NCBI GenBank assembly: GCA_020631485.1
Contig: JAHDHC010000006.1
Location: 1-64,000, forward strand
Source: Candidatus Altimarinota bacterium
Lineage (GTDB): Bacteria > Patescibacteriota > Gracilibacteria > BD1-5 > UBA6164
Direction of reading: 5' to 3'
DNA: 64,000 bases
The position numbers and the translations under genes were made by a program. The stretch's first letter is position 1, and each line of letters opens with the position of its first letter. The notes under the pieces were generated by a model, which saw nothing but the letters and a program-made list of their open reading frames with translations, did no database searches and was not told where the DNA came from. This document shows, one piece after another, positions 14,732-50,006 of the stretch.

Positions 14732-16132
14732 TTATCTAATTGCGGTCATACAATAATTTGTAGTATCAATAGGCTGACTACTATTCGTTCATGTAGTGTA
14801 GGTTGGTCAGTTTGATGACCAAGATGGCTCAACAGTCATAACAGTTCATGAAGCTAAGGCAAATACCAAATTTCAGGTATCAACTATATAATGACTTGTA
14901 GCTGCACTACTTCATGCATAACCTGTTCATAGTTGAAATTGCTTATTTCTATATTTCGCTTTTAAGCTCTTAGTTGCAAATGGTGTAGCTTGTTTCGTTT
15001 GTCTCTCTAAATTTCATATATCTGCCTTCAAGTATCAATAGATGATAAAAGGGCTTTCATAACTTTTGTGATTTTCACTTGTTGTTTTACACACAAGCAT
15101 AATATCTTTATTCTGATCATCGTTCCATATATTACTGATGGTTCACTTTGAAGAAATGTCACTTGTAATACTTGTTATTTTTTTTGTATTTCAAGTATCA
15201 AATAAGTTTCTTGTTGTGCTATCTGCAAGCATTGTCGCATAGGTCCATCCTCCTCCATCAGTCTCCATGTCACAGTATACTTCAAATGCGTTGTTTCAAT
15301 CTGGATTGATCTTGTACACTCCACTCTTACTTGATCCCTTCATCTGCTTGATCCTTAAACAACTCCCACTTGGATTGATTGACACAAGATCAGTACTATC
15401 CCCCTCTATCACATCATCATCTTTCAAGTATGCCTTGTAACTATCCGACGTAGATCAGATATCAAGAAGCCCAGCTGTAGTCACACTTCATATCTCCTGG
15501 ATCGGAGTATTGAGATCATCAGTCAGGACTCAGAGCTTCTTTCACAGTACTGTCGGAATCCTCTCAGAGTAAGTGTTAGCATATGCTCTATCCACCAAAC
15601 TCAGCTCCCCCTGCTTTTCAGGCATCCCCCTCATTGAGGGGGAACTATCCGTTGTCAGATCAGATCACTCCTCAAGAAATCACAAGAGTTGAAAATACTT
15701 CCTGTCTTTCGTGAGATAGTAGGTAAAATAGGTATTGTCTTTTGGATCAACTCCTCCCTTCTCGTACTCGATAGTTTCAAGCACACTTGATCCAGCGTAT
15801 CACTGGTATCAGATCAAAGATCCATTGATCTGTACTTCTACATAATCCTCTGGGATTGGAAGTGCATTTCTCGTAGAATAGAGATTGAGTCCATCTGACA
15901 TCTTGGTCATCTGGGCTATTCTATTGGTATCTCTGACTCAGATGAGATAACTTGAGTAGCTGACAAATCAGATAGTTGCGAGAATCGCAAGGATCGTTAC
16001 AACCACTATCAATTCAACAAGAGTGAAGGCAATAACCCCTCCTAGCCTCCCCTTATCAGGGGAGGAAAACTGAGATAAAAATAAGCTCTGAGGAGAGCTG
16101 AGATGAGGATTTGTATGTTTTTTGTGGAGCAT
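14732..16132 (-). CDS. Type IV pilin N-terminus fused to fibrinogen-like C-terminal domain (copy 1)
   Basis: 466 aa. It has a class III signal / pilin helix FTLVELIVVVTILAILATIG (residues about 36-55), then a long beta-rich body. The C-terminal half carries the fibrinogen-related signature: C-x-L-x-x-I, SGVYKINPDGNNAFEVYCDM, then TDGGGWTYATML (about 315-335). Such domains bind sugars or proteins in eukaryotes, and bacterial examples are rare. So this is probably a pilus-borne adhesin. The leader before FTLVEL is unusually long (about 35 aa) and consists largely of translated palindromic repeat; the residue before the cleavage Phe is Ala rather than Gly. A second palindrome is translated near residues 163-176. 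Paralogue: 57435-58793. Confidence 0.85.
15606..15643. repeat. Palindromic repeat inside pilin-fibrinogen gene 1 (body)
   Basis: TCCCCCTC and GAGGGGGA pair around a 3-nt loop (15625-15643), preceded by CTCCCCCTGC. The insert stays in frame and encodes SSPSMRGMPEKQGEL. The paralogue at 57435-58793 has no equivalent. Confidence 0.75.
16035..16065. repeat. Palindromic repeat inside pilin-fibrinogen gene 1 (leader)
   Basis: CCTCCCCT-TATC-AGGGGAGG (16046-16065) is a perfect 8-bp hairpin preceded by ACCCCTCCTAG. It is translated as part of the leader (SSPDKGRLGGV), just before the prepilin cleavage region. Confidence 0.75.
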
Positions 16133-43379: not shown

Positions 43380-44615
43380 TTATCATGACAGTTTTTCAAT
43401 CGCTTCATCAAGAGCTTGGAAAAATATATCTATATCTGCTTTGGTGTTGTAGATATAGAGACTCATACGACAAGTTCCAGTAAGAGAGTGCTCGATCATA
43501 AATGGTTCAGCACAATGCTGTCAGGCTCTGATACATATGTTTTTATCAGCAAGAGAGTCAGCTATATCTAGGGCATGAATAGTATCGTGTGAGAATGAAA
43601 ATACTCATACTCTTGTGTCAGGTTTTTTCGATCATTGAAGTTTGAGCTCTGGTCTTTTCACAAAACCTTCAAGCGCATACTCCATCAGTTCTTTTTCGAT
43701 AGATTCGATTGTTTCATATCATCATATATGTTCTATGTATTCTAGTGCTTTCAGCATGCTGACAGCTCCACTCAAGTTTGGAGTACCGGGCTCAAATTTG
43801 TCCGGAATTGGGGCTGACTTGAAAGTGTCAGTATGCACCCAAGAAATAGCTCATCATCATGAAATTCATGGATCAAGACATTCTAAAAATTCTTTTTTTC
43901 CATATAAAACTCCAATTCCACTATCTGCCATAAGTTTGTGTCCTGTGAAAAACAGAGCATCACATCATAGTTTTTGGACATCAATCTTAAAATGCGGAAC
44001 TGATTGAGAAGCATCGATGAAAAACCTCACCCCCTGCCCCTCTCCTTTGGAGGAGAGGGGAGCAATAAGTTTTCTTACTTCTTCTAGAGGAAATATTTCC
44101 CCAGTAACATTTGAAACATGTGTGAGTGAGACAATCTTCACATGTGAATTTTTAAGTTTCTCTTCAAGTTCATTTATATTGAGTTTATAGTCATCAGATA
44201 ATCATATGTATTCAAGTATCGCTCCTGTTTCTTCTGCGAGTATTTGCCATGGTACGATATTTGCATGATGTTCAACTATTGAGAGAACTATAATATCTCA
44301 TTTTTTCAATATATTTGATCTTCTGGCAGATGAAGCAAGAAGATTTGCTGCATAGGTAGAGTTCATCGTATATACTATCTCTCTCCATGAATCTGCTCCT
44401 ATCAACTCTGCAAGTTTCTTTTTTGAATCTATATAAAGCTTCTCAGAGTTTTCAGCTAGATCATAGCTTCCTCTATGAATATTGGCATAATCATTTTCTA
44501 GATACTGTTTTAGTCCATCTATAACATAACTCGGTTTTTGAGTTGAAGAGGTAGAGTCTAAAAAAACAAGATCTGGATGATGAGATAAAATCGGAAAATC
44601 TTTTTGTATATTCAT
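43380..44615 (-). CDS. sufS: Cysteine desulfurase SufS with in-frame repeat insertion
   Basis: 411 aa. A PLP enzyme that takes sulfur from Cys for Fe-S assembly. Motifs: [45 protein letters not shown] Lys in [14 protein letters not shown] (about 226), active-site Cys in [11 protein letters not shown] (about 366). Between KLI (about 184) and RFFIDASQ there is an extra [11 protein letters not shown] from a palindromic repeat at 44029-44062. It starts at 44615, 1 nt before the upstream stop (44616), so it is coupled to the preceding gene. Confidence 0.95.
44029..44062. repeat. Palindromic repeat inside sufS
   Basis: CCCCTCTCCT at 44037 pairs with AGGAGAGGGG ending 44060 (10-bp perfect stem), preceded by CTCACCCCCTG. 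It is translated in frame on the minus strand as [12 protein letters not shown] in a surface loop before a core beta strand. Confidence 0.85.
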
Positions 44616-46192: not shown

Positions 46193-46235
46193 GCTCACCC
46201 CTGCCCTCTCCTGCAAGAAGAGGGAGCAATAGGGA
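46193..46235. repeat. Palindromic repeat between sufA-like and sufD genes
   Basis: CACCCCTGCCCTCTCCTGCA followed by AGAAGAGGGAGCAA is the same family as the sufS element, here in the 59-nt gap upstream of sufD. Confidence 0.65.
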
Positions 46236-46243
46236 TTTTTTTA

Positions 46244-46681
46244 TTAATTAAATCTTGTTTTTAAATCTTTGAGTTTACTGAAATCAATTGTAGGCTTTTT
46301 CTTCTCAAATGCAAAGCTTGTTCCACATCCACATCTGTCTTGTACTTCATCAGAAGTATAGATGTATCTCGATTTCACTACTCAGGTATGGTCTGCCTTT
46401 TGTATTCTTGTGATTCTACAGTTTTCAAAATGCTCTCGGTCTTCTTTTGGAACATAGATTTTACAGCTCCCCCCTAGATCCCCTCTATCTTGTGAAGAAG
46501 AATCTTCTGTCCCCTCTCCTGGAAGGGGAGGGCTAGGGAGGGGTATCAAATCTCCAATTTCAAAATCATCAAACTCAATATTTACTTTTTTCCCGGAACA
46601 TCCAGCTTCATAAAAAAAGACCTTTATTTTTTTGATTCACTGTTCCTGAATCTCAGATAGGAGCTTTTTATCAAGTTTCAT
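46244..46681 (-). CDS. sufA: SufA/IscA-type Fe-S carrier with in-frame repeat insertion
   Basis: 145 aa, longer than the usual 105-120. A-type carriers hold or transfer Fe-S clusters by three Cys. First Cys in YEAGCSGKKV (residue 28); the C-terminal pair is in DRCGCGTSFAF (about 115-117). The region between (about 45-72: PLPSPPLPGEG ... DRGDLGG) has no counterpart in IscA and is a translated palindromic repeat (46476-46544). The remaining parts align to IscA without other gaps. Lies upstream of sufD in the suf operon. Confidence 0.85.
46476..46544. repeat. Compound palindromic repeat inside the sufA-like gene
   Basis: Outer arms CTCCCCCCTAG (46477) and CTAGGGAGGGG (46533), inner arms CCCCTCTCC and GGGGAGGG. 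About 69 nt, in frame, encodes a Pro/Gly/Ser/Asp-rich insert. Confidence 0.8.
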
Positions 46682-46691
46682 ATACTTTAAT

Positions 46692-46719
46692 TTGACAATA
46701 TAATTTTCAATATTATTAT
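46692..46719 (+). promoter_or_regulatory. Promoter of the 46758 small membrane protein
   Basis: TTGACA (46692-46697) and TATTAT (46714-46719) are spaced by 16 nt, about 39 nt before the start; the gene also has a GAGG ribosome-binding site at 46745. Confidence 0.65.
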
Positions 46720-46757
46720 ATGTTTTAGTCTTACTACAAAAAGCGAGGAAAAAGACT

Positions 46758-46961
46758 ATGGAAACGTTGGCATATATCTTCCGAGGTCAAGAAGTACTCT
46801 TGATCGGCTTCATCTTTATCACAGCGTTAGTTACTGCCGGACTTGGCTTTGTGATGAGGCAGAGAATGACAGGCTTTATCCCATTTTTAATGTTAGCGGC
46901 GTTTTTCGCCTATCATTACTTGGAAAATTGGCTAGGCGAAACTCTAAGGTTTAGCCTATAA
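46758..46961 (+). CDS. Small two-helix membrane protein of atypical composition
   Basis: 67 aa. Helix 1 about 14-33, helix 2 about 40-58, arranged around a basic hinge (MRQRMTG). No UGA codon and frequent GCG/GCC/GGC/TTG codons unlike its neighbours, so it may be strongly expressed or recently acquired. A real gene is supported by a consensus promoter, a GAGG ribosome-binding site 9 nt before the ATG, and a strong terminator 17 nt after the stop. It runs opposite to the suf genes on both sides. Function unknown. Confidence 0.72.
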   Translation: METLAYIFRGQEVLLIGFIFITALVTAGLGFVMRQRMTGFIPFLMLAAFFAYHYLENWLGETLRFSL

Positions 46962-46978: not shown

Positions 46979-47001
46979 CCCTGCGTATGCAGGGTTTTTT
47001 T
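46979..47001 (+). terminator. Terminator of the small membrane protein gene
   Basis: CCCTGC-GTAT-GCAGGG then seven T's; it ends at the convergent sufB stop. Confidence 0.9.
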
Positions 47002-48406
47002 ATATCCCTCATTCCATCTCCATCGCGATGAGGACATTCATCTCAGACGCGTATTCGAGTGGGAGTTCTTTCATAATTGGACTGATAAATCCATTTACGA
47101 TCATAGCCTTTGCTTCATCTTCATCTATCCCTCGACTCTGAAGATAAAAAAGATCATTTGGGTTTATTTTTCCAGCACTCGCTTCGTGGGCAACGACACT
47201 TTCAGCATTGCGAACATGTATGTCTGGGACAGCATTGGAGATAGATTCTTTATCGATCAAAAGCCCATCACAGTCTACCTTCACAGTCGAATTGAGTGCA
47301 GATTTTTTGATGTCAACGAGGCCTCTATAGGTATTGATCCCTGATCATTTTGAAATAGACTTACTCATAATATTTGAGGTCGTGTTTTTTCCTATATGCA
47401 CCACTTTTGCTCCTGTATCTTGGTTTTGTCCATCTGATGCGAGCGCGATTCCGAGATGATCAGCTTTCGAGTTATCTCACTTCAATATACTACAAGGATA
47501 GAGCATCGTAGTATTGGAACCGAGGTTTCCACCAACCCATTCCATATATCATCCTTCTTCGACGATAGCTCTTTTAGTATTGAGATTATAGGTATCCATC
47601 GACCAGTTCTCTACAGAACTATAACGCATCGTTGCATTTTTTCACACAAATATCTCGACTCAACCAGCGTGAAGCGAATTTTCATCATACTTTGGGGCAC
47701 TACATCCTTCGATATAATGCGCCTTTGCTCATTCTTCCAGGATAATCATAGTATGCTCAAATTGTCCACCTGACTTTACGTTCATCCTAAAATAAGACTG
47801 TAAAGGCTCGTCTATCTCCACTCCTGCAGGAATATACATAAATGTCCCCCCACTCCAAACTGCATAATGCAATGCTGCAAACTTATGATCCGTTATCGGA
47901 ATAGATTTTGTAAAGTATTTTTTAATTATTTCTTGATACTCTGGATTTGTCAGAGCATGACTCATATCATCAAAAATCACTCATTTGTCTTGAAGTTCTT
48001 GTTTGAGACTGTGATACACGGTCTCACTATCGTACTGGGCACCGACTCACGCAAGTGCTTTTTTCTCTGCCTCTGGAATCCCAAGTCTATCAAAGGTATT
48101 TTTTATATCTTCAGGGACATCATCCCAGCTCTTGTTGTTCCCAGCTCCCTCAGGTTTCGCAAAATAGTAAATACTCTCAAGATCGAGTTTTTCGAGACTT
48201 GGCCCCCATTTTGGGAGAGACTTCTCTTGGTACACCTTGAGTGCCTTGAGTCTGAGCTCAAGCATCCACTCTGGTTCTTTATTTGACTCAGAGATCTGTC
48301 TGACTACTTCTTCGTTTATCCCTTGAATAAACTCAGTTATGTACTTCACTCCTTCATCCTTAAAGTCCCAAGTACCTGATGTTGTCACAGTTGTATTATT
48401 TGACAT
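47000..48406 (-). CDS. sufB: Fe-S scaffold protein SufB
   Basis: 468 aa, full length. A core subunit of the SufBC2D scaffold. Recognisable segments: [92 protein letters not shown], and the conserved C-terminus [40 protein letters not shown]. The first codons encode [15 protein letters not shown]; an almost identical start is repeated at 48993, beyond the DUF559 element. Probably transcribed from the promoter upstream of sufC, if readthrough of the element occurs. Confidence 0.97.
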
Positions 48407-48441
48407 AGATTTGTTAATTTTTAGATTTTATTTTTTGATTC

Positions 48442-48486
48442 CTAATCCATCAGTCCTCCGGACAGCTTCCTTTCAAAAGGAAGCCA
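48442..48486 (+). repeat. Left terminal inverted repeat of the DUF559 element
   Basis: Begins CTAATCCATCA, ends AGCTTCCTTTCAAAAGGAAG then CCA. It is the inverted counterpart of 48907-48949, with a few differences in the middle 9-11 nt. It contains its own hairpin GGCTTCC/GGAAGCC. Confidence 0.88.
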
Positions 48487-48488
48487 GA

Positions 48489-48869
48489 TTATATCAATTT
48501 TGTTTTTATATTTTTTAATACCTGTTCAATATCTTTTTCAATCTCATTGTTTTTTATTCGCAATACTTGAATTCAATGTTTCGAAAGTAAATCTTCTTTT
48601 ACTGTATCAAGTTTCTTAATATGATGAATATTATGAATTTTTCCATCAATCTCTAAAACAAATTTCTTTTCATGACAATAAAAATCTACAATAATATATC
48701 GATCACTTCAAGTATTTTCAGTATACACATAAATTGCTTTTTGTCTTAAAAATCTCACACCAATTTTATCATACCTCAAGTAGTTCCATAGTTTTCTCTC
48801 AGCTGGAGTCATATTTTTCCTCAATTCTCTCGCTGCTTTTTTAATGAGTTCTGGAATTTTTCTTGTCAT
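48489..48869 (-). CDS. DUF559-family (restriction-endonuclease-fold, Vsr-like) protein
   Basis: 126 aa, standard DUF559 size. N-terminus RELRKNMTPAERKLWNYLR, RFLRQKAIYVY, then the nuclease-type core: YIIVDFYCHEKKFVLEIDGK (D...E-x-D) and HGIQVLRIKNNEIEKD at the end. This D-(x)n-E-x-D pattern is that of PD-(D/E)XK/Vsr-like nucleases, though activity of DUF559 proteins is unproven. The gene fills the space between two inverted repeats, as described for the element. AT-rich coding, UGA used as Gly, so it is adapted to the host code. Confidence 0.88.
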
Positions 48870-48906
48870 AATAATATATTTTATTTCTCATCTTTATTCC
48901 AATTTA

Positions 48907-48949
48907 TGGCTTCCTTTTGAAAGGAAGCTCCCGAAGGGTGATGGATTAG
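48907..48949 (-). repeat. Right terminal inverted repeat of the DUF559 element
   Basis: Reads TGGCTTCCTTTTGAAAGGAA to GATGGATTAG on the plus strand, the reverse complement of the left repeat except for the middle (CTCCCGAAGGG versus GTCCTCCGGAC). Confidence 0.88.
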
Positions 48950-48993
48950 AAATACCAAGCTCCAGATGTTGTGACGGTTGTATTATTTGACAT
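48946..48993 (-). pseudogene. Duplicated 5' end of sufB (truncated by the DUF559 element)
   Basis: ATG plus 14 codons read [15 protein letters not shown] and then stop in the element end. The true sufB begins [15 protein letters not shown]. The two 42-nt stretches differ mostly at third codon positions, which suggests that both were once under coding constraint. It could still be translated as a 15-aa peptide. Confidence 0.82.
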
Positions 48994-49236: not shown

Positions 49237-49259
49237 CCCGCATTTGCGGGCTTTTTTTA
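49237..49259 (+). terminator. Terminator after the 49064 gene
   Basis: CCCGCA-TT-TGCGGG followed by C and seven T's, ending at the convergent sufC stop. Similar in sequence to the 46979 terminator. Confidence 0.9.
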
Positions 49260-50006
49260 TACTAAGTTATCATAGCCCCCTTCCATCACTTTTTCAACAA
49301 GTTCTTTTCCTCCAGACATTGCAAGATCTCAGGCTTTCATTATATGGACACTATCTACGTCTATATATTCAAGTATCTTAAAATAGTGTGTGATGATTAT
49401 AAGCGTATTTTCTGTACTATCAATTGATTTGAGAAGCTCACATACTTTTCTAAAGGCATCAAGATCTAGTCCACTATCTATCTCGTCAAGTATAATATAC
49501 TTTGGAGAAAGGAGTTTCATCTGAAGAATTTCGAGTTTTCTTTTCTCTCATCCACTAAAACCCACATTGAGATCTCTTTCCAGAAAACTTTCATCGATAT
49601 CAAGATCTTGGAGATATTTTTTTACGTGTCGCTTAAAGACAAATGGTGAAAGTTCGGGAGTCTCTGGAGAATTGTATTTTAAATACTGATTGTATATAGT
49701 TCGTAAGTATTCACTCATTTTTACTCATGGGATCTCAGGCACATTTTGAAATGAAAGAAACACTCCAGCTTGACTTCTCTCTTCTGGTGACATTTCTAGT
49801 AGATTTTTTCATTCTATGCTTATAGATCCATGTGAGACTGTGTATTTCGGACTTCCTGCTAAAACCGCACTCAGTGTTGATTTTCCACTTCCATTTTTTC
49901 AGAGTAAACAATAGTTTTTTCCAAGATCAAAATCAAGCGATATATCATGGATAATTTTTTCTCAGCTATCAGCAACTTCAACTGCGAGTTTTTCGATCTG
50001 TATCAT
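49257..50006 (-). CDS. sufC: Fe-S assembly ATPase SufC
   Basis: 249 aa, family length. An ABC-type ATPase of the SufBC2D complex. Walker A LLGKNGSGKST (first Gly is UGA), Q-loop VFLSFQNVPEIPGV, signature LNVGFSGGEKRKLEILQM, Walker B YIILDEIDSGLD, H-switch IIITHYFKILEYI. First gene of the suf operon on the minus strand; its distance from sufB (850 nt) is due to the DUF559 element and a small opposite gene. Confidence 0.96.

Follow-up and report, generated by a model that had tools for sequence, protein, structure and literature searches.

The window, a stretch of 64,000 nucleotides, carries between the genes sufB and sufC (the latter at 49257-50006) a compact element consisting of one gene of the DUF559 family and two flanking inverted arms (Table 1). 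The gene is read with translation table 25, under which its two TGA codons specify glycine; 2 nt lie between it and the left arm, and 37 nt between it and the right arm. The arms share a core of 23 nt with perfect complementarity (48464-48486 and 48907-48929) and an outer stretch of 25 nt that is 80% complementary (48438-48462 and 48929-48953); within the window CTAATCCATCA occurs exactly twice, at 48442-48452 (+) and 48939-48949 (-). Each of the two arms also folds individually as a hairpin, a property overlooked in an earlier note on this DNA. The coordinates bear out that note's description of inverted repeats around one DUF559 gene with 2 nt and about 37 nt of spare DNA, and its statement that a transposase is absent holds as well, since DUF559 is the only gene of the element. 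At 48441 and 48950, where the arms end, there is no short direct repeat, so that the target-site duplication expected of a DDE-type MITE or insertion sequence is not seen here.

Table 1. Positions of the DUF559 element, the sufB start and its duplicate, and solo repeats of the suf region.
Feature	Position	Strand	Basis
Left inverted arm: CTAATCCATCA, mini-hairpin and main hairpin GCTTCCTTTCAAAAGGAAGC	48442..48486	+	read from sequence
DUF559 (PF04480) gene, PD-(D/E)XK/EDxHD-type nuclease, 126 aa, TGA=Gly code	48489..48869	-	
Right inverted arm	48907..48949	-	
Intact sufB, start retains TSGTWDF of relatives	47000..48406	-	
Incomplete, diverged copy of the sufB start, then a stop, finishing exactly at the element edge	48950..48993	-	
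Solo CCTCACCC..CCCTCTCC-type hairpin, in frame within sufS	44025..44059	+	
Solo hairpin repeat at the beginning of the sufD reading frame (PLLAGEGRGE)	46193..46224	+	
Solo hairpin repeat, in frame within the gene at 46244-46822 (PLPSPPLPGEG)	46512..46543	-	

Outside the arms, a direct repeat of 44 nt, likewise overlooked in that note, connects 48950-48993 with the true sufB start at 48363-48406 (84% identical). The duplicate touches the right arm, and 35 poorly matching nucleotides part the left arm from the counterpart. Since relatives share the residues of the intact sufB start, this downstream start is the ancestral-like one, and the partial copy upstream is the odd member of the pair. Because the sufB start is duplicated and the two versions differ, we considered, as a tentative idea, a natural form of "cleave and rescue", in which the element would carry a recoded start of sufB; the intact copy, however, has the ancestral-like TSGTWDF, and cutting of sufB is speculative. 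The same duplication complicates the notion of an "empty sufB site", and the site-specific homing at sufB that had been suggested earlier finds no support. In relatives G008 and G016, independent hairpin insertions are present in frame at the sufB N-terminus, and G008 has a DUF559 gene directly upstream of the sufB start codon.

The window element is not a product of chance, because five of the seven gene-sized intervals bounded by inverted repeats (score at least 40) in a 464-kb sample of its own genome enclose DUF559, compared with no such interval in shuffled sequence. A unique local element was rejected, since the genome has six DUF559 genes and hundreds more occur in other genomes. Five of these six lie between inverted hairpins of differing sequence. 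Of the DUF559 genes sampled here, a single one (G000:C9:36889-37200) lacks clear inverted arms; on either side of it are related GTTCCCC..AGGGGGATGTCC repeats in direct orientation.

DUF559 is present in 36 of 60 relatives. In order to detect arms, the 400 nt upstream of each gene were aligned to the reverse complement of the 400 nt downstream, with a score of at least 36. Inverted arms were found at 73% of the 73 DUF559 loci of the order (53 loci), against 4% when flank pairs were mismatched between genomes and 3.5% when pairs were shifted along the same loci. A sample from many phyla (Proteobacteria, Bacteroidota, Chloroflexi, Cyanobacteria, Elusimicrobia, Patescibacteria, and others), which is biased to one branch because the scan profile was built from six sequences of that branch, had inverted arms at 53% of 79 loci, with controls of 6.5% and 1.4%. 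Inverted arms were undetectable at 27-47% of the DUF559 loci in these two samples of 73 and 79. The wider evidence favors the earlier proposal of a minimal selfish unit whose protein aids its spread; the arrangement is, however, not special to this locus.

Arms and genes are also matched in kind. In comparisons across the order's genomes, the more alike two DUF559 are, the more alike are their arms (Spearman 0.29, 0/2000 permutations, kinship ignored), and the arm match is 0.46 with the arms of the nearest DUF559 in another genome, compared with 0.24 for random loci and 0.24 for other DUF559 genes of the same genome. Judged by these comparisons of sequence, the arms go with the DUF559 lineage rather than with the host genome. 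They also occur without the gene: the genome contains ten solo copies of the window's arm family, CTAATCCATCCCnAnCCCTTCCTTTCAAAAGGAAGGGA (0 for a reversed control pattern). Some of these form inverted pairs, a glycosyltransferase-like gene has one in frame, and the leaders of pilin-like genes have two. Copy number follows the cognate enzyme. Among 60 relatives, CTCTCC hairpins reach a median of 12 in genomes with the cognate DUF559 clade and 0 both in those with other clades and in those lacking DUF559, an enrichment with p=3e-5 once the flanking arms are subtracted (kinship ignored). In Acinetobacter, where the DUF559 gene is frequently flanked by two-hairpin MITE-like repeats, the motif occurs in 71 of 79 genomes with a full DUF559 and in 18 of 62 without (OR 22, kinship ignored); the exceptions are thus 8 genomes that have a full DUF559 and no exact motif copy, and the 18 that have copies and no full DUF559. 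Arms alone and DUF559 alone, which the earlier note had taken as a sign of independent histories, are both found, but the two are not independent.

These patterns bear on the possibility that DUF559 is mere cargo, riding between mobile repeats whose movement depends on a different transposase, of the DDE or Y1 type. Random cargo would not be expected to display cognate pairing across genomes or to recur in many phyla, and no gene other than DUF559 is regularly bracketed in the 464-kb sample of the own genome. Y1 transposase does not predict repeat copy number (p=0.29), and 7 of 11 repeat-rich relatives lack it, which leaves Y1/RAYT unsupported as the mobilizer. A case that does fit the cargo explanation is relative G030, in which near-identical DUF559 units hitchhike within a larger DDE-type MITE that has the terminal inverted repeat GGCATAATCTAAATTTTGGTGGA and 8-bp target duplications, e.g., TCCCGATT and GAATATCT. 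As its copies ride the larger MITE, this multicopy burst was also rejected as proof of transposition by DUF559. We regard the cargo explanation as quite improbable overall.

The window protein matches PF04480 with 86.5 bits (cut-off 20.6, E=1.4e-24), and residues E24, D62, E73, D75, H79, and D88 are invariant across 42 DUF559 sequences. Its predicted structure (pLDDT 90.5) is most similar to 3HRL, a DUF559 protein of unknown function; next come I-Bth0305I, a homing endonuclease matched through its catalytic domain, and PvuRts1I nucleases. I-Bth0305I is the nearest solved fold outside DUF559 (Foldseek E 1.6e-3, prob 1.00; profile E 1.3e-4). DUF559 is hence predicted to be a small endonuclease that requires metal and falls in the Vsr/EDxHD branch of PD-(D/E)XK; its catalytic fold is intact in the model. 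As early as 2005 (PMC1189080), YcjD, the DUF559 protein of E. coli, was counted among the PD-(D/E)XK enzymes and placed close to Vsr.

This kinship with Vsr would suit a repair or tolerance enzyme that resolves hairpins or triplexes and is kept where repeats abound, with no part in moving them. Such an enzyme would likewise produce a correlation with copy number, and work on the Caulobacter DUF559 protein VsrA links it to DNA damage and to a cytosine methylase, and points to a Vsr-like DNA-damaging role. A repair function leaves unexplained, however, why the gene sits between cognate arms and why it is inserted together with them within housekeeping genes, and we give this explanation little credence.

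Insertions of the latter kind are found in relatives, in which whole units are read through in frame within recG, mnmA, priA, leuS, and tsaD, with further in-frame hosts among MiaB-like, rsmB/F-type, and mgsA-type ATPase genes and queH. Pfam reports the host domains and DUF559 within single reading frames at the inserted genes. The recG insert was read in ten genomes and always occupies one spot, between ..HAILES and IQVAIMAPTEI; nine of the ten are in frame, and the out-of-frame one lies at a contig edge, without its right arm. Other species of the occupied genera have the empty recG site. A tree of 73 DUF559 domains contains a well-supported clade of 15 rows that corresponds to the in-frame units and a clade of 24 rows of mostly stand-alone genes, the window's among them.

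Recurrence at a single recG codon in the ten verified genomes, together with the insertions at mnmA loci and in other conserved genes, is what a free-standing homing endonuclease might produce. Such an enzyme would cut empty recG, mnmA, or sufB sites, the element would be copied by homologous repair, and the arms would be structural passengers. The structural proximity to I-Bth0305I points in the same direction, and so may the diverged duplicate of the sufB start, a scar of the type that could result if a related donor served for repair on one side. However, the recG site is occupied by two DUF559 clades bearing different arms, so that recurrence at this site may instead reflect the tolerance of a loop, and for this reason strict homing to a single site was rejected as the main reading. 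Moreover, solo arms are spread over many sites, some of them intergenic, and, unlike the phage EDxHD enzymes, the window protein has no DNA-binding extension past its nuclease domain of 126 aa. We therefore consider homing an unlikely explanation.

The arms themselves resemble a known class of repeat. In 76 of 77 tested arms one strand of the stem reaches a pyrimidine content of at least 85%, and 28 of the 77 have a third strand that mirrors the stem with no more than one mismatch, where 3.4 would be expected. In the window's solo family (CCATCCC/CCCTTCC) the mirror has one mismatch; the window's own two arms have a mini-hairpin in the linker and a weak mirror. As a class, the arms are built like the intrastrand triplex motif known as PIT, TM, or BoxC, and in many genomes they also match it in sequence, with CCCTCTCCC..GGGAGAGGGTTAGGGTGAGGGG as one example. 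This motif is present in more than 260 bacterial genomes, with 23 copies in E. coli MG1655, and sometimes occurs as inverted pairs; its authors searched the gene contexts and reported no mobility gene (Holder et al., 2015; PMC4666352). Tandem inverted pairs and a wide distribution are further features common to both sets of repeats. What our analysis adds to the motif as described (PMC4666352) is DUF559 as a candidate mobility enzyme, none having been proposed there.

In MG1655, ycjD (1351407-1351760) lies about 170 bp from the triplex copy TMECO 9 (1351205-1351240) and also adjoins a truncated arm (1350000-1352800 was read). Other E. coli lineages have the eef efflux operon at this site instead (PMC12817139). 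A spread sample of E. coli genomes, searched with a joint BLAST query, yielded 17-30 matching places in genomes with ycjD, the locus itself counted, and 2-23 in those without, with about 14 in O157; because the lineages are few, this comparison of copy number is weak support. Two paired E. coli copies have empty alleles in other strains, and no clear target duplication was seen at these alleles.

On this evidence we think it likely that DUF559 enzymes disperse their cognate hairpin or triplex repeats, with the arm-gene-arm unit as the autonomous form, in a manner similar to RAYT and REP. The nuclease would recognize its own cognate arm and cut at or near it, probably when the arm is extruded as a hairpin or triplex, and the host's own machinery might then use the break or the released arm in a repair that places the arm at a new site. 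The arm-gene-arm unit would be autonomous in this process, and solo arms and inverted arm pairs would be non-autonomous derivatives moved in trans. An insertion into a coding gene may survive if it keeps the reading frame and falls in a loop that tolerates it. The association and the cognate pairing are demonstrated; both cutting and transposition by DUF559 are steps that we infer. Whether the proposal extends to hundreds of species, with DUF559 as the transposase-free mobility enzymes of triplex repeats in general and ycjD/BoxC as a resident example, is to us evenly balanced.

The resemblance to REP/REPIN sequences and their RAYT (TnpA-REP) lies in the inverted palindromes on either side of a single-copy nuclease gene, in cognate pairing, and in solo and paired non-autonomous copies elsewhere in the genome. 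Unlike RAYT, which is a Y1 HUH transposase, the DUF559 enzyme is PD-(D/E)XK/EDxHD-like and unrelated to it. The DUF559 arms are of the homopurine/homopyrimidine triplex type and lack the GTAG/CGTC tag of REP, and whole DUF559 units lie in frame within essential genes, in which they also differ from RAYT/REP. The DUF559 element would work like RAYT/REP but is not a member of that system, as its enzyme is unrelated and its arms are of another kind. EDxHD homing endonucleases such as I-Bth0305I share with it the catalytic fold and residues as well as occupied and empty alleles in conserved genes; unlike the genes of these enzymes, DUF559 units have no intron, intein, or DNA-binding extension, and their flanking repeats are widely dispersed. 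Palindromic repeats that lie in frame in protein genes are also known from the Rickettsia palindromic elements, which differ in sequence and are not known to contain a nuclease gene.

If this proposal is true, the function of DUF559, including that of E. coli ycjD, and the spread of PIT/TM/BoxC would explain each other. In the available portions of the DUF559 literature, our search found no link to triplex repeats. The proposal would also mean that essential enzymes such as RecG and MnmA can accommodate, without splicing, a nuclease domain that a selfish element has placed in their reading frame. The idea is directly testable in laboratory E. coli.

Two minor observations concern further repeats of these kinds. 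The window contains another homopyrimidine palindrome, CCCCCTCATTGAGGGGG, at 15626-15642, which belongs to a different arm family. In the pilin-like genes G000:C2:36021 and C26:30974, two differing in-frame hairpin repeats are located in the leader peptide before GFTLVELIVVVTILAILATIGF.
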